This document shows, piece by piece, positions 5,728 through 62,780 of a stretch of DNA of 64,000 nt. The stretch comes from a virus, in the IMG/VR virus record IMGVR_UViG_3300047319_000798, positions 1 through 64,000 of that record. One strand, 5' to 3'. Position 1 is the first letter of the stretch, and the number at the start of each line of letters is the position of its first letter. The position numbers were made by a program, and so were the translations under genes. The notes under the pieces were generated by a model. The model did no database searches. It was not told where the DNA came from and was given only the letters and a program-made list of their open reading frames with translations.

Positions 5728-6153
5728 ATGATTATCCAGGACGGTGGGCTATTGCGTCAATACTGTCGCGCCCGAACCACTGGGTCGATTATGGCCGACG
5801 GCGACAGTGGTCCTCCACTGGTCATCGATCTCCGGCTGAAGCCGGATGCATCACCCCTAGACTTTCTCACGGCCATGTATCGCCATCCCGGCGTTCCGTT
5901 AGGGATGCGTTTGACAGCGGCGCAGAACGCGGCGCAGTATGTTCACCCAAGGCTTGTAGCTATCGCGGCGGTTAGCCCGGGCGGCGAGCGGTTTGAGATC
6001 AAGGGCGGCTTACCCGCGCTACCCGGCGCGCCAACCATAATGCCGGGCAGAGAGGGTCCGATCATTGATGCTAAAGCAACAGTGATTGAACCAACACCAA
6101 TGAAGAAGCCGATCAAGCCAAAGACCCCGGCGGATGAGCCGGTTGATCCGTGA
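5728..6153 (+). CDS. Putative terminase small subunit
   Basis: ATG 5728 has GGAG seven bases upstream. The 141-aa product carries a helical block PLDFLTAMYRHPGVPLGMRL followed by TAAQNAAQYVHPRL (about residues 44-77), a pattern shared by short proteins encoded directly before large terminases in many proteobacterial phages. The C-terminus is a Pro/Lys-rich tail. It would bind phage DNA ends and hand them to the large subunit. It overlaps the large terminase start (GTGA). The call depends on position and this one motif. Confidence 0.6.
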   Translation: MIIQDGGLLRQYCRARTTGSIMADGDSGPPLVIDLRLKPDASPLDFLTAMYRHPGVPLGMRLTAAQNAAQYVHPRLVAIAAVSPGGERFEIKGGLPALPGAPTIMPGREGPIIDAKATVIEPTPMKKPIKPKTPADEPVDP

Positions 6154-7493
6154 CGGTAATCCAGTTTCCAAGGGACAAGGGTAGAGGGCCACCCCCACCG
6201 GAGGGGCCGGATTATACCCGCACTCAGACCATCGAAATTCCCACCTTCCACGAGGATCAGGTCAGGGCTTTCTTTCAGCCCGGGCGCTTTCGCGCGGGCC
6301 GCTGCGGACGACGCTGGGGCAAGACCACGTTTGACGAAGCCATTGCTGCCGATTACGTGGTCAAGGGCGCGAGTGTCGGCTGGTTCGCCCCCAACTACAA
6401 GTACCTCACGGAGCCTATGCGCGACCTTGAGGAAATACTTGCCCCAATCACCATCGACTCAAACAAGTCGATAGGTTACATACACGCCCGCACCAAGGGC
6501 AAGATTGACTTCTGGACGATGGAGGATAGCCGCGCCGGTCGCGGACGTCACTACCATCTAGTGGTAATCGATGAGGCGGCATTCGCGAAGGGGAATGCCA
6601 TGGAAGTTTGGGAGCGGTCTATCCGCCCCACCCTGGTCGATCATCGCGGCGCGGCCCTGGTTACGTCGAACACGAATGGCGTGGACCCCAGTCAGTTCTT
6701 CTGGCGTATATGTAATGAGCCTAAATTCCAGTTCACAGAGTTCCACGCCCCTAGCCGCAACAACCCATTCCTGCCCCCGGAGGAACTGGAGGAGCTTCAA
6801 GCTAAAAGCCACCCTCTAGTCTGGCTACAGGAATATGAGGCAGAGTTTGTCGATTGGCGCGGCGTTGCGTTCTTCAGCCTCGACAAGATGCTGGTCAATG
6901 GCGAGCCGGTCGATTGGCCAAAAATCTGCGACAGCGTCTTTGCCACTGTAGACACCGCGATTAAGTCCGGTAGCGAACACGATGGTACAGCGATCATCTA
7001 CTGGGCGCTGATGAACGTGCCCGAGCCGCAGCTAATCATTCTCGACTGGGATATCGTTCAGATTGACGGCGCGTTCTTAGTTGAGTGGCTGCCCCAAGCG
7101 TTCCGTAAGCTAGAGCAATACACCCATCTGTTTCGCGTGCGCTTCGGCTATGGGTCCATCTTCATAGAGGATAAAGGCTCAGGCACCATTCTCTTACAGG
7201 CCGGAGAAGCACGAGGATGGCCCGTCGTGCCAATCGACGGCGAGATGGTGGCTAAGGGCAAGGACGAGCGGGCGATGGCGGTCTCAGGCTTCCATTACAA
7301 CGGGTGGTGTAAGGTATCGCGCACAGCCTACGACAAGACCATGTTGTTCAAGGAACAAGAGCTGAATCACCTAATCACCCAGATCACTACCTTTCGGGTT
7401 GGTGACAAGGAAGGGTACAAGCGGGCCGATGATCTCTTGGACACTTACTGCTATGGGCTATCGATTGGGCTAGGCGGAAATCAGGGCTTCTGA
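6150..7493 (+). CDS. terL: Terminase large subunit
   Basis: The 447-aa ATPase-nuclease packages DNA through the portal. Walker A reads GRRWGKTT (Lys58), Walker B HLVVIDEAAF (Asp141, Glu142), and the coupling motif is near TSNTNG. The C-terminal RNase H-like nuclease shows acidic residues at ATVDTAIKSG, FIEDKGSG and KRADDLLD. The length is normal. GTG 6150 overlaps the previous stop, and the stop overlaps the next ATG. The deduced packaging type (cos or headful) cannot be read from this alone. Confidence 0.95.
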   Translation: MTVIQFPRDKGRGPPPPEGPDYTRTQTIEIPTFHEDQVRAFFQPGRFRAGRCGRRWGKTTFDEAIAADYVVKGASVGWFAPNYKYLTEPMRDLEEILAPITIDSNKSIGYIHARTKGKIDFWTMEDSRAGRGRHYHLVVIDEAAFAKGNAMEVWERSIRPTLVDHRGAALVTSNTNGVDPSQFFWRICNEPKFQFTEFHAPSRNNPFLPPEELEELQAKSHPLVWLQEYEAEFVDWRGVAFFSLDKMLVNGEPVDWPKICDSVFATVDTAIKSGSEHDGTAIIYWALMNVPEPQLIILDWDIVQIDGAFLVEWLPQAFRKLEQYTHLFRVRFGYGSIFIEDKGSGTILLQAGEARGWPVVPIDGEMVAKGKDERAMAVSGFHYNGWCKVSRTAYDKTMLFKEQELNHLITQITTFRVGDKEGYKRADDLLDTYCYGLSIGLGGNQGF

Positions 7494-7792
7494 TGACGAT
7501 CAACAAAAGGGCAATCGAATTTCATCGCCTTGCGGCGGCGGCGCTTTACGCTGCTGGGGATGCGCATGCCGCAGTGATTGATGCGAAGGATATCAAACAG
7601 GCTAGAGCGCTGGCAATTACAGCCCATCAATTGGGGTTGGAGGCAGCGCTGAAATCTGATACAGCCGCTGCGGCTACAGCAGGTGCGCCAGCCGCCAAGG
7701 AATGGGTCAATCCGCCGCTGCCCCAGCGAGCGCCCGACCCACCGCCAAAGAAGCAAGAGCCGGTAGAGGGGCCGGATAACCCGCGTGCCTGA
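7493..7792 (+). CDS. Hypothetical protein between terminase and portal
   Basis: A 99-aa protein with an Ala-rich helical N-terminal half that could form a helical bundle (HRLAAAALYAAGDAHAAV) and a Pro-rich disordered C-terminal third. It overlaps its neighbours on both sides and is surely co-translated with terminase and portal. No family recognised; a packaging accessory or small head protein is possible from position only. Confidence 0.65.
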   Translation: MTINKRAIEFHRLAAAALYAAGDAHAAVIDAKDIKQARALAITAHQLGLEAALKSDTAAAATAGAPAAKEWVNPPLPQRAPDPPPKKQEPVEGPDNPRA

Positions 7793-9416
7793 CAAGAACT
7801 CATACCTGGAGAGCACCGCGCTCGGAAACAGCCTTGAGGAAATCTTCCTCAGTGGCGACATTATCCCGGGCGACACGGTTAGCTACAGCGTCTGCAAGTC
7901 CATATTCCTTTACCATCCGCTGGGCTTCAAGATGGTCTGCGGCCCGCTCCAGCTGGCTATGTCTGAGGGGCGCGCGGTCACGGTTCCCAATTCCCCGGGC
8001 GAGCGGGTGGCGCAGGTCTTTCAGCAGCAGTGGGAAGAGATTAACGCCGACGCCTACATCTTCCAGACCATGGCCATGTCGCGGGTCTACGGGATTAGCT
8101 CCCTAGCCTTGTTGATCGATGGGGTCGCGCCAACTGAGCCGCTGGACCCCTGGTCATTGCCGGACGCCAATATCGCCTTCAACATTTATGATCCGCTTAA
8201 TACCAGCGGCAGCCTAGTGTTGAACCAGCAGCCGATGTCTATGGATTTTATGAAGGTCCAGGAGATATCGGTTCAGGGCAATGCTTTTCACCGGTCGCGG
8301 GCGATCACGGTTCAGAACGAGTTCCCGGTGTACATTGCCTGGAACCCATCGGCATTCGGCTTCGTGGGCCGGTCTGTTTATCAGCGGGCGTTCTTTCCGC
8401 TGAAGTCCTACTTGAAGTCTATGATCACTGACGACATGATCGAGACTAAGGTTGGCGTGATCGTTGCTAAGATCAAACAGGCTGGGTCGATTGCCAATGC
8501 GGTTATGAAGGCTAGCGCGGCCTTTAAGCGCAACGTGGTCAAGGAGGCGGAGACCGGTAATACAATCAACATCACGCCGGAAGAGGACGTGGTGTCGCTT
8601 AACCTCCAGAATATGGATGGGCCCCATGCGTTGGCACGGCGCAACATCCTTGAGAACATTGCGACGGCGGCGGACATGCCGATCAAGATACTGGCACAAG
8701 AAGCGTTTGTGGAAGGCTTTGGAGAAGGTACAGAGGACGCGCGGGCGGTGGCTCGTTATGTTGATCGGGTTAGGATCACCACCGATCCTTTGTACAGGTT
8801 TTTCGATAAGATTTGTCAATATAGAGCCTGGAGTCCGGCTTTCTTTGAGAGCATGCAACAGGATTTCCCGCAGACCTATGGCGGGATGACCTATCGCGAG
8901 GCTTTCTATAAGTGGTCCAATTCATTTACTACAGAGTGGCCGAGCGTACTTGAAGAGCCTGAGAGTGAGCTGGCACAGCTAGAGGATGTAAAGCTCAAAG
9001 CAGTGATCGCGTTGATCCAGGTGTTTGAGCCTATCCTTGACAGCTCCAACAAGCTTGTACTGTACGAATGGGCGGCGGATAACATCGCTACCAACAAGGT
9101 GATCTTTAGCTCGCCGCTGGAGTTTGATTTTGAACAGCTGTCAGAGCACCTAGCTGATAAGGAAGAGCAAGAACAGGACATCCAAGACGCCCAAACGGAG
9201 GGGTTCCAGAACATGGGCGACCCCGATCAAGCGGGCGGCGGCGCTGGCGCTGGTGGCAGCGTCGAAGTCCCAGTCAAGATGGGCAAGGCAGACGCGCTGG
9301 CGTCACGCTTCGACAAGGCGGCGGCGGCGCTGGCTAAGATATCGCCGGATGCTCAAGACGTGATCCCGATTGGCAAGCTGCGTGACGCGTTGCTCAACAA
9401 AAAGAGGCGACGATAA
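7785..9416 (+). CDS. Portal protein (DUF1073-like)
   Basis: This 543-aa protein sits directly after terminase and before the MuF-type protein, the standard portal position. Its sequence (YSVCKSIFLYHPLGFKMV, RSRAITV, GRSVYQRAFFPLKSYLKS, a long central helix, then an acidic C-terminal tail) fits portal proteins of the DUF1073 type. The portal forms the 12-subunit ring at one head vertex through which DNA passes. Residues after about 480 are Gly/Ala-rich and likely disordered. It starts at GTG 7785, overlapping the gene before. Confidence 0.85.
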   Translation: MPDKNSYLESTALGNSLEEIFLSGDIIPGDTVSYSVCKSIFLYHPLGFKMVCGPLQLAMSEGRAVTVPNSPGERVAQVFQQQWEEINADAYIFQTMAMSRVYGISSLALLIDGVAPTEPLDPWSLPDANIAFNIYDPLNTSGSLVLNQQPMSMDFMKVQEISVQGNAFHRSRAITVQNEFPVYIAWNPSAFGFVGRSVYQRAFFPLKSYLKSMITDDMIETKVGVIVAKIKQAGSIANAVMKASAAFKRNVVKEAETGNTINITPEEDVVSLNLQNMDGPHALARRNILENIATAADMPIKILAQEAFVEGFGEGTEDARAVARYVDRVRITTDPLYRFFDKICQYRAWSPAFFESMQQDFPQTYGGMTYREAFYKWSNSFTTEWPSVLEEPESELAQLEDVKLKAVIALIQVFEPILDSSNKLVLYEWAADNIATNKVIFSSPLEFDFEQLSEHLADKEEQEQDIQDAQTEGFQNMGDPDQAGGGAGAGGSVEVPVKMGKADALASRFDKAAAALAKISPDAQDVIPIGKLRDALLNKKRRR

Positions 9417-9925: not shown

Positions 9926-10262
9926 CAGCATCACTTCAGCGCAGGTTGGCACCGCTGTTGTGGCGGTGGCGGGCAGCCTGAAAGGGCTGGCGGTTACGCT
10001 GCCGATTGCGGCCAATGCTGATACCAAGACCCCGTTGATCCTGCTCGACTCAACAACTGGGTCTGGAGTGATCCTGTTTTCGGCTTTTCTTTCGGACCTT
10101 CAGTCGTTCATGTATGCGCTTAAACCGGCTAGCGTTCCACAGCCACCGGCTAGCCCCACGGCGCCAGTGGCGGGAACCGTGTTCACGGGGGTGTTACCCT
10201 TTACCCAAGGGCTGTATGTTAAGAGCTGTCCAGCCAATATGACGGTTACGGCCACCACATGA
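9915..10262 (+). CDS. Hypothetical virion protein
   Basis: ATG 9915 is preferred over the GTG three bases before it. The 115-aa product is Ala/Thr/Pro/Val-rich with beta-strand character throughout and no charged clusters, as in small head decoration proteins. It overlaps genes on both sides. No family recognised; structural role inferred from position. Confidence 0.6.
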   Translation: MAANSITSAQVGTAVVAVAGSLKGLAVTLPIAANADTKTPLILLDSTTGSGVILFSAFLSDLQSFMYALKPASVPQPPASPTAPVAGTVFTGVLPFTQGLYVKSCPANMTVTATT

Positions 10263-11128
10263 GTCTGCGTGACTTCCAGGCGGTGATCCGCGAGGCGGTC
10301 AAATATTTTAGCCAACACGGCTATACGTCTGAGCGGGCGCTGGACATTTGGTCAGAACGGATTGCTCAGGCGGCTAAGGAGACCCTGGTCAGCACCGAAG
10401 AAGCTAGTGCCCAGATAGCCCGACATCTAGCGGCGGTCTATGCCCGAATGACTCGTAAGGTGCCCAAGCACCTACAGGCGCTACAGAAGACACGATATGG
10501 GGCACGAATGGGGCCGGAGATGTACTTTCGCCGGGTGTCCACGTTTCCCGAGCTGGTGTACAAGATGCGTAATGAATTAGACCGGCGGATTGCTGCCAGT
10601 GCCGATCTGATCAAAATCCGGCGTGAGGAGAGCCTGGCAGCGACCATGCGTCGGTGGAGGGGTTGGGCGAGCAGCGTTCCTCCCGGCGGCACGCCCACCC
10701 CTCCTAGTAACGAAACCAATTTGCTATTGAAGGATTTCAGGAAAGTTCGATTTGAAACTAATCGACTCAACATTGATCAAGGACATAAGCTCAATTCATC
10801 CCTCAACGCCACTCTCGCTGAGAGCACCGGCGCAATTGCCGGCTTATGGCATTCGAACTGGAAGCAGCTCAATTACAACTATCGCCCAGATCACAAGGAC
10901 CGTGATCTTAAGCTGTACACGATACGCGGCAACTGGGCGATGGTGCAGGGCCTCATGAAAGCGGGGCCGGACGGCTACGCCGATGAGATAACCCAGCCGG
11001 CAGAGGAAGTCTACTGCCGCTGTTGGTATCAGTACATCTACAACCTGGACCGGCTGCCTGAGGCCATGTTGACTGAGAAGGGTAAGAAGGCACTCCAAGC
11101 ATTGAGCGATATTGAATCAGCGGCCTAA
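10259..11128 (+). CDS. MuF/SPP1 gp7-like head morphogenesis protein
   Basis: This 289-aa protein follows the portal. Its long helical N-terminal part ends in a Mu gpF-type C-terminal domain (about residues 195-275) marked by LWHSNWKQLNYNYRPDHK, LYTIRG, then DEITQPAEEVYCRCWYQY. That Cys-containing pattern is typical of minor head proteins injected or lodged near the portal. It starts in an ATGA overlap with the gene before. A mobile-element toxin fusion, sometimes seen on this domain, is absent. Confidence 0.8.
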   Translation: MSLRDFQAVIREAVKYFSQHGYTSERALDIWSERIAQAAKETLVSTEEASAQIARHLAAVYARMTRKVPKHLQALQKTRYGARMGPEMYFRRVSTFPELVYKMRNELDRRIAASADLIKIRREESLAATMRRWRGWASSVPPGGTPTPPSNETNLLLKDFRKVRFETNRLNIDQGHKLNSSLNATLAESTGAIAGLWHSNWKQLNYNYRPDHKDRDLKLYTIRGNWAMVQGLMKAGPDGYADEITQPAEEVYCRCWYQYIYNLDRLPEAMLTEKGKKALQALSDIESAA

Positions 11129-11139
11129 AGGAGACACTC

Positions 11140-11541
11140 ATGGCTGAAGACAAGCAACCCGATAAGCCCGAGCGCCAGAAGATGGAGATGGGCGGCTCCG
11201 GCGTCGCCGAGGTTTCGTTCGCAGACGCTTTTGGCGGTGACGTCAAGATCAAGTCCGTGGTCTGGACCGCGACTGGTGCTGTGGCAGTGACCCCGGATGC
11301 GGACGACCCCACCACAGCCAACATATTCGCGTCGGGACCAGGCCCCGTGACGCTCACAGCAGTGGGCACGACCGAGACTGGCGCCTCAGCGACCGCGATC
11401 ACTGAGATCATGGTCATCGAGAAGGACGCGCCGGTTACGGGTGAAATTGAAGTCACGGTCAAGGCTGCCCCGGCTAAACCCAAGGCACCGGAGCCCAAGG
11501 CACCGGAACCGCCAGTACGGGGGCAGCCCGCGCATCGGTAA
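11140..11541 (+). CDS. Ig-like (Big-type) virion decoration candidate
   Basis: A 133-aa protein with AAAGGAG before its ATG. Residues 20-105 have the strand rhythm of a bacterial Ig-like domain (VKSVVWTATG-like strand, a PDADDPTTANIFA turn, GPVTLTAVG, ATAITEIMV), followed by a Pro/Lys/Ala tail. Such domains often bind the capsid surface. It overlaps the endolysin start by one base. Function inferred from fold and place. Confidence 0.6.
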   Translation: MAEDKQPDKPERQKMEMGGSGVAEVSFADAFGGDVKIKSVVWTATGAVAVTPDADDPTTANIFASGPGPVTLTAVGTTETGASATAITEIMVIEKDAPVTGEIEVTVKAAPAKPKAPEPKAPEPPVRGQPAHR

Positions 11542-11993
11542 TGGCTACTCAGCTCACACCGAACTTCACCTTAGAAGAGTTCACCGACAGCCAGACGGCG
11601 GCGCGGCGCGGTATCCATAACGTGCCACGTCCGGCCAGTCAGGAGCACAAGAACCTTCAACGGATGGCCGAGGTTATGGAGCTGGTGCGTACCATCCTCG
11701 ACGGCCATCCTATTTTGATCAGCTCCGGCTATCGTAGCCCAAAGGTTAACACGGCGGTCAAGGGCAGTAAGAGCAGCGCCCATATCCATGGGTTGGCGGT
11801 TGACTTCAGCTGCCCGGGGTTTGGTACGCCAATTGATATCTGCAAGGCGCTAGAGCCGCACATGCGTGAGCTGGGTATCGACCAGCTGATTCATGAATTC
11901 AATACCTGGGTGCATTTGGGCCTGAGCGCGGGTGAACCGCGCCATATGGCGCTGACCATCGATAATCGGGGCACGCATCATGGGTTTGTCTGA
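11541..11993 (+). CDS. M15-family peptidase, likely endolysin
   Basis: The 150-aa enzyme has the full M15A (D-Ala-D-Ala carboxypeptidase type) pattern: SSGYRSPKVNTAVKGS, then SAHIHGLAVD with zinc ligands His81 and Asp88, and WVHLG with His125. It is a zinc peptidase of peptidoglycan stem peptides. It has no signal peptide and lies next to a membrane protein with three transmembrane segments, so the pair looks like endolysin plus holin, placed unusually inside the head gene block. The next gene starts in a TGATG overlap. Confidence 0.9.
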   Translation: MATQLTPNFTLEEFTDSQTAARRGIHNVPRPASQEHKNLQRMAEVMELVRTILDGHPILISSGYRSPKVNTAVKGSKSSAHIHGLAVDFSCPGFGTPIDICKALEPHMRELGIDQLIHEFNTWVHLGLSAGEPRHMALTIDNRGTHHGFV

Positions 11994-12343
11994 TGCCCGA
12001 CAGCACCCAAGTCTCGTCGCCCCAGCTTCCCGGCGGTGTCATCGTTCCGCCGCCGCCGTTCAAGTTCGTCGATTATCCGGCAGCGTGGGCCGTCACCTTC
12101 GCGGTGGTTGGGTCGATCATCTTGTTGCTGGTCACAGCGCGGTTCGACAACACCAAGGGCGCGTTGACTATCAGCCTTCTGATCATCTTGGCGTTCATTG
12201 GCGTACTCTTCTACAGTGTGACCGTGACGGTGCCTCGCGACGAGACGACGGCGGCGGTGATTGGCGCTCTTACGGCGGCGTTCGGCGGCGTGATTACGTT
12301 CTGGCTTAAGAACCGGGGCGGAGGCGGTAATGCCCCTGACTGA
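11993..12343 (+). CDS. Putative holin (three transmembrane segments)
   Basis: A 116-aa protein with a Pro-rich N-terminus and three hydrophobic helices: about residues 32-48 (VTFAVVGSIILLLV), 58-76 (LTISLLIILAFIGVLFY) and 88-104 (VIGALTAAFGGVITFWL), ending in a short basic/Gly tail. Size, topology and immediate position after the M15 endolysin fit a class I holin that permeabilises the inner membrane at lysis. Sequence alone cannot prove this. Confidence 0.65.
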   Translation: MPDSTQVSSPQLPGGVIVPPPPFKFVDYPAAWAVTFAVVGSIILLLVTARFDNTKGALTISLLIILAFIGVLFYSVTVTVPRDETTAAVIGALTAAFGGVITFWLKNRGGGGNAPD

Positions 12344-12923
12344 AAAGGGCAAAGAGATCAAGAGTTCCATGACGGAACAGTACGGTCCCGAGAAGGGCGA
12401 GGAGGTCTTTTACGCCTCCAAGAACGCAGGAAGGATCAGTGGCGTGGACACGAAAGCCGATCAGCAAGCCCAACCCCAGGCTGCTCAGCCGAAGCCCCAG
12501 CCGCAAGCGGCCCAGCCTCAAGCACAGGGACAGGGGCAGCAGCAAGCCCAGCAGCCGCCGGTTAAGGAGACCAAGACCACGGTTAAGGAACCGGCGGGCG
12601 GCGCAGAGGGTGAGCAGAAGCAAGACCCCAAGGCCACGCTCAAGGCGGCTGAGGATGAACTGGACGCACTGGAGCGCGAGCAGGAGCAATCGGAAGAGGG
12701 CCTGGGTCGCCAGAACGCGATTGAGGACCAGAAGAAGATCATCCGCACGCTGCGCAATGAGATGCGTGAGACTGAGCACAAGGAGCGTATGGGCGTTGCT
12801 GATGCCGTAGAGAAGTTGGAGTATCTTCAAGACAGCACACTGCTCATGAAGCACATCGGCGACGCCTGTGACAAGCTGGCTGACCGGATGGATGCATTTC
12901 AGGCGAAATCAGCGCGGGCCTAA
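12330..12923 (+). CDS. Virion protein with YGxxKGxxVFYAS domain and coiled coil
   Basis: The first 40 residues (LTEKGKEIKSSMTEQYGPEK, then VFYASKNAGRISGV) form a short domain seen at the N-terminus of many phage structural and internal proteins. A Gln/Ala/Pro-rich low-complexity linker (about 45-80) follows, then a charged coiled coil to the end (197 aa). It overlaps the holin and touches the Nudix-topoisomerase gene. It is probably an internal or scaffold-related virion component. Confidence 0.6.
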   Translation: MPLTEKGKEIKSSMTEQYGPEKGEEVFYASKNAGRISGVDTKADQQAQPQAAQPKPQPQAAQPQAQGQGQQQAQQPPVKETKTTVKEPAGGAEGEQKQDPKATLKAAEDELDALEREQEQSEEGLGRQNAIEDQKKIIRTLRNEMRETEHKERMGVADAVEKLEYLQDSTLLMKHIGDACDKLADRMDAFQAKSARA

Positions 12924-14134
12924 TGCTCAACGCTGCTGGGATCATCTTTCGCTCACCCCAGGGCCGCGTTCTATTGATGCGGCGCAAGGATGGGAAGTGG
13001 GACTACCCGGGCGGCGGCGCGGAGGGCGATGAGACGGCGGTTCAAACCGCCTTGCGTGAGGCGGTTGAGGAGACCAAATACTATCCCGGGCACGCGGGCC
13101 GGTTTCACGCGCGCCGGGTGCGCAATGGGGTCGATTACACGACCTTCCTTCGCGATTGTGAGGAAGAGTTCGTACCCAAGCTCAGCAATGAGCATACGGA
13201 TTACATTTGGATTGATCCTAAGCGGGTACTGACCCAAAGCATTAACGCCCGGGCCGACGATGCTGCGTGGGAGGAAAGCGATCACCCGCGCGATGAGGAC
13301 GGGAAGTTTGCGGGTGGTGGCGGTCATGTCTCCGCGACCCGGGGCGAGGGCGGCAAGCTAGAGGGCGCACCTGAGCATATCGCCAGCCTAAAGGTGCCGC
13401 CCGCATGGACCGATGTAACCTATGCTCAAGACCCGGGGGCTGCGCTCCTAGTCACCGGACGTGATTCTAAGGGGCGGCGGGTGTTCATCTATTCGGAGAT
13501 GCACGCCCAGAAGCAAGCGGCGCTCAAGTTCGCACGGATCAATGAGCTGGATCAACAGTTCAAAACGGTGGCGAAGCAGAACGCGGCGCTAGCCAAGACC
13601 GCCGGAAAGCGGGACGTGGCCGACTGTCTGGGGCTGATCATGGCGATGGGCATTCGGCCCGGCAGTGATCGCGATACCAAGGCGGCTAAGAAGGCTTACG
13701 GCGCGACAACGCTAGAGGGCCAACACGTAGTCACCGAGGGTGATACAACCTATCTGCGCTACACAGGTAAAAAGGGCGTGGACCTAAACCTGCCAGTACC
13801 CAAAGCGTGGGTTAAGGCACTACAGGAGCGGGCGGATAAGGCGGGGCCAAGCGGGCGATTGTTTGGTGGGGTGACCGATGCGATGTTGCGTGAGCACGTC
13901 CATAGTCTCGATGGTGGCGGGTTCACAACCAAAGATTTCCGCACCCATCTGGGTACGTCAACAGCCACCGAGCTGGTGGAGAGGATGGACGTACCCAAGA
14001 CCCAGGCGGAATATCGCAAGGCGGTTATGGAAGTGGCTAAGAAGGTGTCTTCTGTGCTAGGCAATACACCGGTGATTGCCCTCCAGAGCTACATCAATCC
14101 TAGTGTATTCGGGGCCTGGAAAGCTGCCGCATGA
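12923..14134 (+). CDS. Nudix hydrolase - topoisomerase IB fusion
   Basis: One 403-aa frame joins two enzymes. Residues 1-105 are a Nudix domain with box GGAEGDE...REAVEE (Glu37, Arg45, Glu46, Glu49, Glu50); the usual Gly after EE is Thr51. Residues 115-135 are a HPRDEDGKFAGG linker. Residues 155-403 match poxvirus-type topoisomerase IB: VPPAWTDV, VTGRDSKGRR, IRPGS (Arg245), TGKKG (Lys283/284), KDFRTHLGT (Arg340), VLGNTP, then catalytic Tyr390 in SYINP. It would nick and religate DNA through a 3'-phosphotyrosine and relax supercoils. Encoded among head genes, it may be packaged. Such a fusion is unfamiliar to me. Confidence 0.85.
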   Translation: MLNAAGIIFRSPQGRVLLMRRKDGKWDYPGGGAEGDETAVQTALREAVEETKYYPGHAGRFHARRVRNGVDYTTFLRDCEEEFVPKLSNEHTDYIWIDPKRVLTQSINARADDAAWEESDHPRDEDGKFAGGGGHVSATRGEGGKLEGAPEHIASLKVPPAWTDVTYAQDPGAALLVTGRDSKGRRVFIYSEMHAQKQAALKFARINELDQQFKTVAKQNAALAKTAGKRDVADCLGLIMAMGIRPGSDRDTKAAKKAYGATTLEGQHVVTEGDTTYLRYTGKKGVDLNLPVPKAWVKALQERADKAGPSGRLFGGVTDAMLREHVHSLDGGGFTTKDFRTHLGTSTATELVERMDVPKTQAEYRKAVMEVAKKVSSVLGNTPVIALQSYINPSVFGAWKAAA

Positions 14135-15462
14135 ACCAGGTCTTCTTTGGCGATGCTGAAAAGCCTCTGCCCGATTGGCGCAAGGAGCCGGATGAGCCGG
14201 ACCCGGACGATGAGGAGCTAGGGGCCACTCCACCGGATGTGGTGGCGATGCTAGGCTTCGATCCATTGGACGTGGCCCGGGCCGATGCGACATGGGAAGA
14301 GGGCGAACACCCGCGCGACGAGGGCGGCAAGTTTACCGCTGGGGGCGCGAGTCAGGCCCCGGGTGTATCTAAGCCCAAACCGGGCAGCTTTCTCTACACA
14401 GCCAAGCCGCTGCCTGAGCATGTAGAGCATAAATACAGGGAAGAGGTTCGACAGGTTAAGGCGCTGCAGCCTGAGTTCGTGGCTAAGATGCGCCAATATC
14501 ACGAATCACTCCAGGCGTTCAAGGGGCTAAAGGCGCGGGCCAATTCCCCAGAGGGTACGTGGGAGGATTGGGAAGCGGTTCAGGCTCATAAAGACCGCCA
14601 CGGACAGATTACCCGCGATATGTACAATATGGAGCCGCCCGGTTACTTCAAGAAAGTGGCGGCGCTAAGGAAGCACGACACCGATCTGCGGGTGATCGAG
14701 AGGACAGTCAAGCCGGTCAAGGCGGAGACCTTGAAGATAGCCAAGCAGTTGGGCTTTCCGCCGGAGCAGGTCAAGGTCCAGTATGAGGATCGTTTTTTCA
14801 CTCTTGCTGGGAAACAGCGCAATTACGCCGGTTCGGCGGATGTTTCGCAGGGCGGCAAGGGCAACATTACAATGTACGCCCGACAGCTGATCCCGGGCAA
14901 GACGGTGGCAGCGGTTGCGGCCCATGAGATACAACACATCCGCTATGCCAACTTCCAGCAGAAACGGCTAGAGCAATACAAAGAGGTTGTGCGCGAAGCC
15001 AGTCAACATGGGCCGATGGGTGATACCAACCCGATAATGGATTGGACCGGGGTGCTCAAGCCGCCCTATGATACAAAATACCCGGAATGGGCTGCCTGGG
15101 CCGCACAGAAGCAAGAATGGAAGAACGCCAAGGTGCCCGATGCGTTTAAGGGTGACAAGTTGTTGGCCGCGTCAGACGGGGTAACACCATACAGCGAGGA
15201 ATGGTGGGACAATTACCATAAGAACCCATCGTCCTCCACGTTTGAGTCAGCGGTCCATGAGACTTTAGCCGAGATGATGGCGCAGGAGTACAAGACCGGG
15301 TTTTTACCCAGCCACTATTGGTCGGGGCCGTTACCACGCCATAACCAGTCGCCTGAGTATCCAGAGGGCTTCGCCACCCACGAGGGGATTGAGGCGGTGG
15401 AAGAAGAGGGTACAAAAGCGTGGCGTAAGCTGTATGCAACCGTGAATGCGGCAGCCAAATGA
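14131..15462 (+). CDS. HExxH zinc metallopeptidase, probable internal virion protein
   Basis: This 443-aa protein has an acidic N-terminus, then WEEGEHPRDEGGKFTAGG (residues 55-72), nearly the same tag as in the preceding gene. A helical middle follows, then HEIQH at 265-269 preceded by VAA, and HETLAE around Glu377 as a possible third ligand, the arrangement of gluzincin-type peptidases. The target is unknown; if injected it could act on host proteins, and if retained it could cleave capsid or scaffold proteins. It starts in an ATGA overlap with the topoisomerase gene. Confidence 0.7.
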   Translation: MNQVFFGDAEKPLPDWRKEPDEPDPDDEELGATPPDVVAMLGFDPLDVARADATWEEGEHPRDEGGKFTAGGASQAPGVSKPKPGSFLYTAKPLPEHVEHKYREEVRQVKALQPEFVAKMRQYHESLQAFKGLKARANSPEGTWEDWEAVQAHKDRHGQITRDMYNMEPPGYFKKVAALRKHDTDLRVIERTVKPVKAETLKIAKQLGFPPEQVKVQYEDRFFTLAGKQRNYAGSADVSQGGKGNITMYARQLIPGKTVAAVAAHEIQHIRYANFQQKRLEQYKEVVREASQHGPMGDTNPIMDWTGVLKPPYDTKYPEWAAWAAQKQEWKNAKVPDAFKGDKLLAASDGVTPYSEEWWDNYHKNPSSSTFESAVHETLAEMMAQEYKTGFLPSHYWSGPLPRHNQSPEYPEGFATHEGIEAVEEEGTKAWRKLYATVNAAAK

Positions 15463-15668
15463 TAGAGCGCACGATCATTGATGGGCGCGTGGCCAGTGTA
15501 GCCTATCTGACCGATGACTTTCAACCGGCGGGTATTGAGACCGCTACCTTGCTTAAGATCATCTTTGATGATGGAATGGTTGCCTTTGCGCGGAACAGTG
15601 ATGCCGATCTGTCTGAGGCTGAGATGGATGAGCTCCTGGAAAGCCTGGGGCTGACGGATGAAGATTGA
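15459..15668 (+). CDS. Small acidic hypothetical protein
   Basis: A 69-aa acidic protein with a beta-rich N-terminal half and a helical acidic C-terminus (DADLSEAEMDELLESLGL). It overlaps its neighbours on both sides, so it is a real coupled gene between the metallopeptidase and the prohead protease. No family recognised. Confidence 0.6.
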   Translation: MIERTIIDGRVASVAYLTDDFQPAGIETATLLKIIFDDGMVAFARNSDADLSEAEMDELLESLGLTDED

Positions 15669-16374
15669 CCTGCTTCCCGGGGTGGAGGTTGCGTTACGCC
15701 GTCTGTCGATGACCGAGATGGACGTGGCGGAGGCGATACGGGATGGCGAGCTTGCCTCTCCGCAGCAGTTTGAGAACGCGACACTCGTAGACATGCGGAT
15801 CAGCGGGACTGGCATCTCGTATCGCCCTAAGCTCAAGGAGTGGGTGTACAGGCGACCGGAGATTTATCTGACTGATACATTCTTGAGACGGTGTCAGGGC
15901 ATTCCAGTCATCTATGAGCACCCTGATAACACGGTGCTGGATTCAAAGTCCTTTACCAAGCGCATCGTGGGCGTGATGCAGCTGCCCTACATAAAGGGCG
16001 AGGATGTCTGGGGCATTGCCCGGGTTTACGACAAGGAAACTGTTAACGAACTGACTAGCGAACCGCTATCCACGTCACCCAGTGTTGTATTCCGCGACCC
16101 GACAGTTAACTATGAGGTCGAATTGGATAGTGGGGAGACGCTGTTAGTGGAGGGTAATCCCAGCTACCTTGATCATCTGGCGATCTGTGCTAATGGGGTC
16201 TGGGATAAGGGCGGCGACCCCACAGGGGTTCGTGTAGACAGCGTTGATCCGCGCATGCTAGCGATTGCGGACAGCATCGACAATTTGGAGCGACGGTTAA
16301 CCCGTCATCTGATAACCCGGGCCGTTGGGCGTCTGGAACGGCGTATCGAGCAAGTGGAGGCCAACTATGGCTGA
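15658..16374 (+). CDS. DUF2213-like putative prohead maturation protease
   Basis: The 238-aa protein follows the DUF2213 pattern: an N-terminal RPEIYL segment, GIPVIYEHP (about residue 81), a VGVM-type strand, LSTSPSVVF (about 137-145) with the candidate nucleophile Ser, and SYLDHLAI with the candidate His. Proteins of this family lie between portal/MuF and scaffold/major capsid genes and are thought to be herpes-type serine proteases that mature the procapsid. The neighbours here (scaffold-like, decoration, major capsid) match exactly. Confidence 0.75.
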   Translation: MKIDLLPGVEVALRRLSMTEMDVAEAIRDGELASPQQFENATLVDMRISGTGISYRPKLKEWVYRRPEIYLTDTFLRRCQGIPVIYEHPDNTVLDSKSFTKRIVGVMQLPYIKGEDVWGIARVYDKETVNELTSEPLSTSPSVVFRDPTVNYEVELDSGETLLVEGNPSYLDHLAICANGVWDKGGDPTGVRVDSVDPRMLAIADSIDNLERRLTRHLITRAVGRLERRIEQVEANYG

Positions 16375-17972: not shown

Positions 17973-18995
17973 ATGGCTACGATTTCCCCGTCCTTTGCTC
18001 AGGTGCATCCGTCATACACGATGCCTGAGACACTGATGCCTTATACACAGGCGTCAGGCGCGTTCGAGTTGCTGGCAGACGGTGGACCTATGGTCCGGCT
18101 GGCTGATGGCGATTTGTATGCTTACATCAAGCGCATCGACGTTCGCACCCGTATGGCTGCGGGCCAGAGCGCCTATAACCAATTGCCCGGGGTGTCGTTC
18201 GCCCTTGGCCAGATCAGTGCGCCGTCTTATCTCTTGCGGGTGCGCGCCGAGTATGACCACCACGACACGGCGGCCATGGCTCGTTGGGGTATCTCGATTG
18301 TTGAGGCCCACCGCCTTGGTATGCGTCAGGCTGCGTTCCAGATCATGCGTAACGGGTTGTTGTATGGCTTCAACCCAACCAATGGTGAAGGCTTGCTCAA
18401 CGCAGCCGGGGCGACGTCCATCCCGCTGCCCCCTGACAGCGCCAGCAACGCGACCGTGGTCACTTACGACAATGGTCAAATGGCGTTCTTCATCATCGCC
18501 CAGATCAGTGCGATCAAGACCCGGACTAACCAGCTGGGGATTGGCCACAAGTTCGTGATCGTGGGGCCGCAGCGTACACTGGGCGCGTTCGAGTACCAAA
18601 ACATCGTCCAGCTGACCAGCTATCAGCGCCCGGGCGCGGGTTCGACTAGCACCGCCGGTCTCATCAAGGATGTTCTGGAAATGAACGATGATGAGATTTA
18701 CTGGGGCTATGACGACACGCTCATTGGTAAGGGCGCGGGCGGTAACGATGCGGTGATCATCGTCATGCCCGAGGTGGAACAGCCCAAGGGCCAGAGGATC
18801 AACACCAACGAGTTCGCCAAGTTGACGCCCTCGATGGAGGCTTGCACGCTGATGCTCTGCGATATGGCGGCACCCAAGGAAATCCCGGTTCCGCTGGCGG
18901 GCGGCGCCATCGACGTTCTTGCTGAGATGCGTACGACTTCCGGCTGGGGTGTTCGCCCGGAGGCCATTACCGTCATCAGCATGCAGTACTCTTAA
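17973..18995 (+). CDS. Major capsid protein (DUF2184-like)
   Basis: The 340-aa protein follows scaffold and decoration genes and is followed by the strongest terminator of the head block, as expected for the most expressed gene. Features such as YIKRIDVRTRMAAGQSAYNQ, a long helix with EAHRLGMRQAAFQIMRNGLLYG, and the C-terminal MRTTSGWGVRPEAI resemble DUF2184-type HK97-fold capsid proteins. GGAG precedes the ATG. It forms the icosahedral shell. Confidence 0.8.
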   Translation: MATISPSFAQVHPSYTMPETLMPYTQASGAFELLADGGPMVRLADGDLYAYIKRIDVRTRMAAGQSAYNQLPGVSFALGQISAPSYLLRVRAEYDHHDTAAMARWGISIVEAHRLGMRQAAFQIMRNGLLYGFNPTNGEGLLNAAGATSIPLPPDSASNATVVTYDNGQMAFFIIAQISAIKTRTNQLGIGHKFVIVGPQRTLGAFEYQNIVQLTSYQRPGAGSTSTAGLIKDVLEMNDDEIYWGYDDTLIGKGAGGNDAVIIVMPEVEQPKGQRINTNEFAKLTPSMEACTLMLCDMAAPKEIPVPLAGGAIDVLAEMRTTSGWGVRPEAITVISMQYS

Positions 18996-60913: not shown

Positions 60914-61446
60914 TCCAGTATAACCTCTGCGGCGTTGTCCCGATTGACAACGATCTTGCGCACCCCTAGTGCCTGTAACTTACCTACGTAATTACGGGCA
61001 CGTACATTGGTGCCGTAAATGTTGGATATCGCTAGCTGGTCGCGGGTCTTGCCCGACCGGGCCAGTATCGCGCTGATACAAGTCTCTACTGGTGTATCGA
61101 GCAAAACTAATGTAACGTTCTGATAGCCTAGCGCGCGGAAAAAGTCAATTCCCCGCGTATGACTCATCATACGGATACCTTCAAACAACACGTTGTACCC
61201 GGCCTGGTGCGCGCAGCGCACTGTCTCCAGGTTGTAATCCCTATCCTTGATCGCGTCGCAACCTCTGGCGGTGATCGCGTGATACTTGCCCACGACCACG
61301 AGTGGACCGCCAAGGGTCATCTCGTAGCCGCGCACCTTCTTCGTGGCGTCATCCAGTATCGCCTCCACGTCCGGAGCGGCGGCCATCACCTTGTCGATGA
61401 TGGTCGATTTACCGGACCCGTTGGTGCCGCACACCTGTATGATCAC
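60883..61446 (-). CDS. P-loop kinase 2, 5-hmdU DNA kinase-like
   Basis: The 187-aa protein starts with IIQVCGTNGSGKST (P-loop Gly7-Thr15), then GGPLVVVGKYHAITARGCDA and NVLFEGIRMMSHTRGIDFF, then Arg-rich lid-like segments. It is a paralogue of the kinase at 56465. Its overlaps with the transferase-like gene and with the radical SAM gene point to a role in thymine hypermodification: phosphorylation of 5-hydroxymethyl-uracil in DNA. Small-nucleotide kinase activity is the alternative. Confidence 0.75.
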   Translation of the reverse strand: MIIQVCGTNGSGKSTIIDKVMAAAPDVEAILDDATKKVRGYEMTLGGPLVVVGKYHAITARGCDAIKDRDYNLETVRCAHQAGYNVLFEGIRMMSHTRGIDFFRALGYQNVTLVLLDTPVETCISAILARSGKTRDQLAISNIYGTNVRARNYVGKLQALGVRKIVVNRDNAAEVILECLSKISPTP

Positions 61447-62780
61447 GCTGCCACCTCCTGACGCATATCCTTGAGATCGAAGGCCTTGCCGCTAGCTAAC
61501 AGGTCTGAGCCACAGGGAGCCTTGCCTGTGGTCTCCGCGCACCGGAGGCAGCCGGAGGGTGGACAGACTTCTAGCGGGGCGAACCCGCCGCCCCTCTTAA
61601 CGTATGTCGGCACACGATGGCCGTGGCATTGGTCTGCGGTTAGGAACTCCGGCCCCATTGAAGTCCACGCCCCGGTCTTGATGGTATATTCGTAGCACAG
61701 GGAGTAGGTCATACCGTGCCGCGTGGCAGCGGCCTGATATCGCGTGTGGCCTTCGCGCCGATATGTCTCGGTGACAGTCCGCTGGCTCCCGGCCTGGTTC
61801 TCAGTGAACAGGTCGATAAAGCCTTGAGCGCGGTTCGCGCCAAAAGCTTTGCTGATCCTTTCCTCCATAGAGGCGCGCCAAGGGTGATTGGCCTCGACAA
61901 ACTTGACGATGACGTGGTTTGCTCCGTTGGCGGCTAACAGCCCAATTAGCTCCTCGATATCCTCATGGGTGGTGATCCCGGGCACAACCGGGTTACACTG
62001 GATGGAAACATAGATGTCGCGCATGCGCGCCTCGCGTATCTCGCTAAAGTGCTGCGCTAGCGTGATCGCCCCGGGCGATAACTTTGCCCAGTCATCCTCA
62101 TGCGGCGTGTTGATCGATTTCTGCATGTAGGAATGGGGGTTCTGGCTCATAAGATCGTAGGCCCAGCCGGGATAGCTCAGGCGGGAAAGGAAGAAGATGG
62201 GGAGGCCCGCGTTAACGAAAGCCTCCGCGCCGCGCTGGGTATTATGGTAATAATCCTCCAGCGACAGGAAGGGGTCTGTAAAGCTGGAGAAATACCCGGC
62301 CTGGGCGTGCTTCATGGTGCCCAGTTGCTTAGCCACCATATCGCCATATCCAATCGGCACAGTGGCCAGTCCGGACCCACGATAGCCGCGATGGCCGGAA
62401 TTGATGTAACAGAACCGACACCCAACAGCGCAATAGCCGCCATAAGGCTGAGTAAGGACAGCGTTCGTTTCACAGGGGCGCTCCCGCTTGCCCTTGATCG
62501 CGCCGTCTCCCTTATTGGAGTACCAGCCGCGAAGGTCTTGGCCCTTGTCGAGCCGAATGTGGGGGATTGGATCCAGATAGATGGTTTGCTCCACCATCTT
62601 ATCGGAGCCGCGCATCATCGATATCTTGCCGTCGCGCGCCCGAATAGAGCGGCCTGTGACCGGGTCATCAATGTGGTTGATGGGACCCAGGATGTCACGC
62701 ATATCGGGGTCCACGCGCATGAAGTAGCGATAAGCCTCTTCCGCCGCTTCGTCCTGAAACATGCCATCCTGGGTTTCCAT
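61443..62780 (-). CDS. Radical SAM enzyme, probable base-modification isomerase
   Basis: The 445-aa protein has the radical SAM cluster motif CAVGCRFC (Cys117, Cys121, Cys124) after a YGGY stretch, a SAM-binding barrel (GYFSSFTDPFLSLEDYYHNT, LPIFFLSRLSYPGW, VSIQCNPVVPG), and a C-terminal CPPSGCLRCAE...PCGSD group that could hold a second iron-sulphur cluster or zinc. The architecture resembles spore-photoproduct-lyase-like and related enzymes. In phage M6-type pathways a radical SAM isomerase rearranges the glycyl group on the modified thymine; the gene order here fits that role (inference). Confidence 0.8.
   Translation of the reverse strand: METQDGMFQDEAAEEAYRYFMRVDPDMRDILGPINHIDDPVTGRSIRARDGKISMMRGSDKMVEQTIYLDPIPHIRLDKGQDLRGWYSNKGDGAIKGKRERPCETNAVLTQPYGGYCAVGCRFCYINSGHRGYRGSGLATVPIGYGDMVAKQLGTMKHAQAGYFSSFTDPFLSLEDYYHNTQRGAEAFVNAGLPIFFLSRLSYPGWAYDLMSQNPHSYMQKSINTPHEDDWAKLSPGAITLAQHFSEIREARMRDIYVSIQCNPVVPGITTHEDIEELIGLLAANGANHVIVKFVEANHPWRASMEERISKAFGANRAQGFIDLFTENQAGSQRTVTETYRREGHTRYQAAATRHGMTYSLCYEYTIKTGAWTSMGPEFLTADQCHGHRVPTYVKRGGGFAPLEVCPPSGCLRCAETTGKAPCGSDLLASGKAFDLKDMRQEVAA

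Follow-up and report, generated by a model that had tools for sequence, protein, structure and literature searches.

A Nudix–topoisomerase IB fusion in a phage head module, a candidate head cargo built around a recurring HPRD motif

Introduction

Why should a phage encode a topoisomerase among the genes for its head, and in one polypeptide with a Nudix hydrolase? The question is raised by a gene in positions 1 to 64,000 of IMG/VR virus record IMGVR_UViG_3300047319_000798, a stretch of 64,000 nucleotides that we refer to as the window. An earlier note on this DNA had read the gene as a fusion of a Nudix hydrolase with a topoisomerase IB (TopIB), took the protein to combine cleansing of the nucleotide pool with DNA relaxation, and supposed that it may travel in the virion and act on incoming DNA. 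Phages must cope with the twist of a genome that is forced in and out through a narrow portal, and such a protein might bear on how they do so.

Results

An intact fusion gene in the head module

The fusion is real: the frame is open throughout, and Pfam recognises both domains (Table 1). It lies in a plus-strand series consisting of the genes for the large terminase subunit (TerL), the portal and a MuF-type protein, an M15 peptidase/endolysin gene, a small membrane-like gene, a coiled-coil-like gene, the fusion itself, a second motif-tagged gene, and the DUF2213 and major capsid genes. The gene was correctly assigned to the head genes; DNA polymerase and thymidylate synthase are encoded far away on the minus strand (51.9–56.5 kb). 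It overlaps its upstream neighbour by 1 base and its downstream neighbour by 4 bases, and this overlap of start and stop codons suggests co-translation. A holin had also been named nearby; the 116-aa ORF in question (11993–12343) has no family match that would support the label. The M15 peptidase/endolysin and this small, possibly membrane-spanning ORF (together 11541–12343) sit between the MuF and coiled-coil genes, an odd site for lysis genes. Elsewhere in the window, a DNA repair photolyase family protein (61443–62780, minus strand; phrog_9252, E 3e-168) is encoded not far from the genes for the polymerase and thymidylate synthase.

Table 1. Features of the head module in the window, with the evidence for each.
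Feature	Position	Strand	Remarks
Terminase large subunit	6150..7493	+	phrog_2, E 1.6e-29
Portal protein	7785..9416	+	phrog_146, E 5e-44
MuF-type head morphogenesis protein	10259..11128	+	phrog_324, E 9.5e-19
Coiled-coil-like head-module gene	12330..12923	+	upstream of fusion; no family match
Nudix–HPRD linker–TopIB fusion	12923..14134	+	403 aa; single intact ORF
Nudix domain	12932..13240	+	aa 4–106; Pfam NUDIX PF00293, E 1.1e-15
First motif copy, WEESDHPRDEDGKF	13268..13309	+	in disordered linker of fusion
TopIB cassette, absent from L003	13325..14273	+	between two motif copies; window–L003 DNA alignment
Topoisomerase IB	13373..14092	+	N-terminal domain from aa 151, catalytic core up to nucleophile Y390
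Putative zinc metallopeptidase, motif-tagged	14131..15462	+	HEIQH at aa 265–269; no Pfam match, assigned by HExxH motif
Second motif copy, WEEGEHPRDEGGKF	14293..14334	+	near N-terminus of next gene
DUF2213 head maturation protease, split from Nudix here	15658..16374	+	phrog_6216, E 1e-80; phrog_530, E 1e-5; PF09979, E 0.0016
Major capsid protein	17973..18995	+	phrog_6671, E 5e-147; PF09950, E 2.6e-5

Both halves retain their catalytic residues, as had been read from the Nudix region E37–E50 and from R245, K283, R340 and Y390; to the latter we add N381, the fifth member of the TopIB set, which follows in the right order and spacing. The Nudix box (E37, R45, E46, E49, E50) has the form REx2EE with the upstream Gly and Glu, and K52 stands at the position of the usual late Gly. 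When 81 Nudix domains of related head modules are aligned, each of these five residues is kept in 80. Across 53 aligned TopIB domains from the window and viral contigs, R245, K283, R340 and Y390 never vary; at position 381 a single domain has D and the other 52 have N. Because the catalytic residues are conserved across these 53 and 81 domains, both active sites are under selection. Two Pfam families cover the TopIB half (Top1B_N_bact PF21338, aa 151–181, E 6.6e-8; Topoisom_I PF01028, aa 196–383, E 2.4e-19).

In the AlphaFold model (mean pLDDT 91) a disordered linker at residues 111–134, with pLDDT below 50 at 111–113 and 120–134, lies between two confidently predicted domains. Foldseek matches the C-terminal half to the TopIB folds of variola (3igc, E 2.5e-15) and Deinococcus (2f4q, E 1e-14) and the N-terminal half to the Nudix folds of 3grn, Dcp2 and Ap4A hydrolases (E 1e-8 to 1e-6), in agreement with the sequence profiles for both halves. 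DNA relaxation is the predicted activity of the TopIB half, and hydrolysis of a nucleoside diphosphate linked to X that of the Nudix half. A MutT-type, pool-cleansing role is not indicated by the structural matches, which include Ap4A hydrolases and Dcp2 no less than MutT; for published head-fused phage Nudix domains, substrates of the ADP-ribose/NAD type are favoured (PMC9503650). No LPD or polyvalent Pfam family matches the fusion protein, which with two domains in 403 aa is not a large multidomain polyvalent protein in the sense of Iyer et al. 2017. For the neighbouring putative metallopeptidase, tblastn against phage records gave no match and AlphaFold, from a two-sequence alignment, a pLDDT of 45.

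A recurring HPRD motif

The linker contains the motif W-x-E-x-x-HPRDxxGKF, of which the general form is [FW]xExxHPRDxxGKF followed by a Gly-rich tail. The corresponding DNA pattern occurs in at least 119 viral stretches, and the reversed pattern, used as a control, in none. In 80 fetched loci (L095–L174) we counted 106 copies in 91 ORFs, 12 of which have more than one; the maximum is five, in a 1351-aa protein (L105:964–5016). Relative to the first possible start, 34 of the 106 copies lie within 60 residues and 12 within 15. Among 79 of the proteins that carry it, Pfam finds an ADP-ribosyltransferase exoenzyme domain in 10, portals of four families in 6, 5, 2 and 1, MuF in 4, Nudix in 4, TopIB in 2 and a PI3/4-kinase-like domain in 2, with single cases of DUF2213, zeta toxin, PolyVal ART, PBECR3, LPD1, LPD3, LPD13 and GNAT. 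PHROGs add portal, head maturation protease, minor head protein and Alt-like ART assignments. A protein BLAST of the motif against the phage collection returned just 10 weak matches, and in all six fully named phages the match was to portal-region or head genes. Among cultured phages, PhiXhv-5 and Orimi01 are examples in which the portal bears the motif. From this distribution we read the motif as an element that is widespread in phage head-type proteins, where it stands between domains or at the N-terminus. Its text was not found among the openly licensed papers searched, which is weak evidence of novelty since sequences are seldom printed as text.

The motif marks the boundary of a TopIB cassette

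In the close relative L003, the counterpart gene consists of a Nudix domain (84% identical) joined to the metallopeptidase, which the window encodes in a gene of its own directly downstream. Aligned as DNA, window positions 12329–13324 correspond to L003 323–1265 and window positions 14274–16242 to L003 1190–3152, so that the single motif of L003 (1190–1265) matches both motif copies of the window. The TopIB and its surroundings, which L003 lacks, lie between these two copies, and a cassette flanked by repeats in this manner is what recombination at the motif would be expected to leave, whether the cassette was gained or lost. A recent foreign import of the cassette was also considered and set aside: its GC content (0.594) and GC3 (0.669) lie within the range of the neighbouring genes (0.554–0.609 and 0.644–0.741), and composition gives no sign of it.

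TopIB is attached to several kinds of head protein

A TopIB profile search yielded 55 viral contigs, and in 12 of them Pfam confirms a portal and a TopIB in one ORF. Direct portal–TopIB fusions are 815–1266 aa long. Ten have PF06381 portals with E values of 7e-57 to 6e-115 (L215, L219, L220, L222, L223, L230, L232, L235, L243, L258), and to these come L224 (PF06381) and L234, whose portal is of the lambda family (PF05136). Eight more (L244–L249, L265, L267) are portal–TopIB by our own profile only; L243–L249 are near-copies of one another. L252 encodes DUF2213–HPRD–TopIB (by Pfam), L270, a Gemmatimonadaceae assembly, MuF–TopIB, and L238 a TopIB joined to an ADP-ribosyltransferase. In L269, a gammaproteobacterial assembly, portal, MuF, TopIB, Nudix–DUF2213 and major capsid genes are consecutive. 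InPase co-occurs with portal–TopIB in L235 and L224. The portal, MuF and DUF2213 fusions all come from metagenomic contigs or metagenome-assembled genomes, and tblastn against a phage collection of 50,697 records found no portal-fused TopIB. With our narrow profiles a head gene was seen near the TopIB in 27 of the 55 loci, to which Pfam adds L224, L234, L235 and L252; none was detected near the viral TopIBs of L239–L241, L250 and L259. The strict motif is present in 20 of the 56 ORFs of the TopIB set, and in many others variants such as HPRGQPGNAGQF or HPRVKSGKNAGEF precede the TopIB.

The arrangement of the window, Nudix–HPRD–TopIB, recurs in L216, L227 and L228 at 52–53% identity. These answer the call for the same fusion in other phages, and they also speak against a frameshift, or any other sequencing or assembly error, having joined two genes: with the order repeated in three other contigs, the frame intact and the catalytic residues conserved, an artefact is hardly credible. 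TopIB is found as well without Nudix, in L214 and L218 (tagged genes inside the head module), in L226, L231 and L233, and in the portal fusions.

In a maximum-likelihood tree of 60 rows, 33 TopIBs including that of the window form one clade (support 100/100) apart from 15 chromosomal TopIBs. The clade mixes portal-fused rows (11), Nudix-fused rows (all three) and unfused ones; the portal-fused L258 and the MuF-fused L270 fall outside it. The sister of the window TopIB is L214, which has no Nudix (99/86), and L216 groups with L217, L218 and L269 (100/99). This topology requires either two or more separate joins, or one join and several losses.

Several proteins in the set have features of their own. 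In L214 (9530–10774) the place of the Nudix is taken by an N-terminal CSICTHF-x6-C-x11-WC, which resembles a small metal- or iron-sulfur-binding segment, and in the portal-fused L223 the motif follows a similar WCKLF segment. L260:4660–8436 and L262:5457–9914 encode proteins of 1259 and 1486 aa that start with an HPRDRSGxDRGxF-like stretch and a TopIB, have a weak PI3/4-kinase-like match at the C-terminus and belong to a separate TopIB lineage. In the MuF-type head gene L269:3923–5728, two MuF segments are separated by what seems to be an intein (Intein_splicing, E 3e-5).

Nudix as a resident of the capsid module

A search with the capsid protein gave 80 related viral contigs. Together with fetched phage records, they contain a Nudix domain in 81 ORFs, in most cases at the N-terminal end of the DUF2213 protein (a layout verified by Pfam in L083 and L073) and usually without TopIB. 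In Klebsiella phage Chronis and Pantoea phage PdC23 a Nudix domain heads the gene preceding the capsid gene, and in Burkholderia phage Bcep1 it ends the portal. TopIB is found in few of the 80 contigs, and most phages with this capsid type have none. From this census, the Nudix domain is best described as a near-constant and long-standing resident of the capsid module and the TopIB as a swappable passenger.

A single Nudix–TopIB pathway, which would underlie the pairing of pool cleansing with DNA relaxation, is therefore rejected: Nudix occurs mostly without TopIB, TopIB also without Nudix, and in L003 Nudix is joined to the metallopeptidase. Each domain has other partners or stands alone; what the two share is a linker, not evidently a pathway.

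Two further Nudix ORFs deserve mention. A 1375-aa ORF (L061:2015–6139) has a Nudix at its front and no further Pfam domain, and likely carries another passenger; and in the head module of Yersinia phage vB_YenM_29.18 (OM046621.1; L009:3477–5108) a Nudix match is found under the label 'glycosyl transferase', which is probably wrong.

Discussion

We propose that the fusion is head cargo of interchangeable parts, in which the Nudix domain would be the resident and the TopIB a catalytic passenger on a flexible tag, and that phages may use this tag to hang enzymes on portals, MuF proteins, proteases, or nothing. No structural head protein is joined to the window TopIB itself; among related TopIBs, twelve are fused to portals, one to MuF and one to DUF2213. 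These relatives, spanning two portal families, give indirect and converging support to the earlier guess that the protein travels in the virion, and we consider it very probable that the TopIB is head-associated. The fuller claim, that as head-associated cargo it relaxes the phage's DNA during ejection or packaging, is in our judgement likely, with less confidence.

Virion location, timing and DNA as the in vivo substrate are what we infer, and the course of events may be pictured as follows. The fusion would be made late, together with the head proteins, as gene order suggests; the tag, or an attached head domain, would draw it into the procapsid; and it would be carried in the particle near the DNA, the portal fusions making the strongest case for this step. 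The TopIB would then nick and reseal phage DNA and so release twist, likeliest at genome entry and first transcription or circularisation, alternatively during packaging, and the Nudix domain would have a separate task in the host, on a nucleotide-type substrate. Given head association, we rank action at or after ejection first, with about even chances, packaging second, as a lesser possibility, and the host chromosome third, as unlikely.

TopIB requires neither ATP nor metal, a property that would suit an enzyme tethered at the portal vertex or in the prohead and acting, without being mainly delivered, as a packaging swivel for terminase-driven twist. The direct portal fusions would put it on the DNA entry ring, and since its DNA substrate is already in the capsid, it could act at entry or at packaging. 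That packaging can be limited by topology is shown, for at least one phage, by the packaging defect of T4 topoisomerase II mutants, which is cited in PMC10893049 along with a torsional compression model of packaging. A role confined to packaging is nevertheless improbable in our view: the same tag bears ADP-ribosyltransferases, zeta toxin and kinase-like domains, for which no substrate would be expected in a capsid and which point to delivery, and a TopIB is lacking in most phages with the capsid type. It is by analogy with these shared cargo types, ADP-ribosyltransferases above all, that we argue that cargo on the tag travels in the particle and, for the most part, is delivered; injection of portal- and MuF-fused enzymes has been argued in published work (PMC5512222, PMC9503650). 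The same company, other conflict domains included, and the TopIB–ADP-ribosyltransferase of L238 could also suggest an anti-host effector, one of several early weapons, which once injected relaxes or disturbs the supercoiling of the host chromosome. This we think quite unlikely, as relaxation by a handful of enzyme molecules would barely alter a whole chromosome, whereas local action on tethered phage DNA would need few.

The protein could also be an ordinary replication or recombination topoisomerase that acts in the cell late in infection and has come to lie among head genes through mosaic gene order. TopIBs outside head modules do exist, in Bacteroides phage BS162P1 (top1E) and in jumbo phages. 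Chance order, however, does not account for fusions to two portal families, MuF, DUF2213 and Nudix, nor for the grouping of related TopIBs in one supported clade, and we give this reading little credence. A further reading concerns the motif, which may be a cleavage site of the head maturation protease, the fusion being a polyprotein from which cleavage in the prohead releases TopIB. T4-type phages do cleave head cargo during maturation, and the motif is repeated between domains (up to five times in one protein), lies in a disordered linker and adjoins portals and DUF2213. But a cut at the 12 of 106 copies that lie 15 or fewer residues from the first possible start would free almost nothing, which favours the motif itself as the tag; we regard cleavage as a genuine, if minority, possibility. 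Equally tentative is a bolder version of our own proposal, in which TopIB at the portal vertex of tailed phages would serve as a DNA swivel for packaging or ejection, [FW]xExxHPRDxxGKF as a general plug for cargo enzymes on head proteins, and its DNA repeats as marks of the sites where cargo is swapped.

If head cargo is the correct reading, head-fused topoisomerases would offer a direct genetic handle on genome twist, through a single Y-to-F change. The motif could help to predict virion cargo among uncharacterised phage proteins, including ADP-ribosyltransferases and other early effectors, and the tag is a possible route for loading enzymes into phage particles.

How does this protein relate to systems already described? 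With the bacterial and poxvirus TopIBs (PF01028; Deinococcus 2f4q, variola 3igc) it shares the fold, the R-K-R-N/H-Y set and the N-terminal domain; the phage-head TopIBs differ in being attached by a tag to head proteins and in forming a clade separate from the chromosomal enzymes found here. Our literature search found no papers on packaged vaccinia topoisomerase, and we do not count that parallel as evidence. Jumbo phage TopIB is likewise a phage-encoded enzyme of this type, but it has been described as a core DNA-metabolism enzyme (PMC7824862), not as a head-protein fusion. The Nudix half is already known in kind: Iyer et al. 2022 (PMC9503650) described phage Nudix domains that are encoded in head genes and joined to MuF, portal or capsid-processing peptidase, and predicted that they are packaged and injected. 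That paper makes no mention of a topoisomerase, whereas here the Nudix carries a TopIB or a metallopeptidase. Polyvalent proteins and portal/MuF effector fusions (Iyer et al. 2017, PMC5512222; MuF toxins, PMC5576092) are similar in that modular enzymes are mounted on head proteins, and injection has been proposed for them. TopIB is absent from the cargo domains of Iyer et al. 2017, where the word topoisomerase occurs solely in the title of a reference; among the openly licensed papers searched we found neither a published fusion of TopIB to portal, MuF or protease nor the HPRD tag. Head-mounted phage enzymes are known, then; what appears to be new is TopIB as the mounted enzyme, together with the recurring tag.
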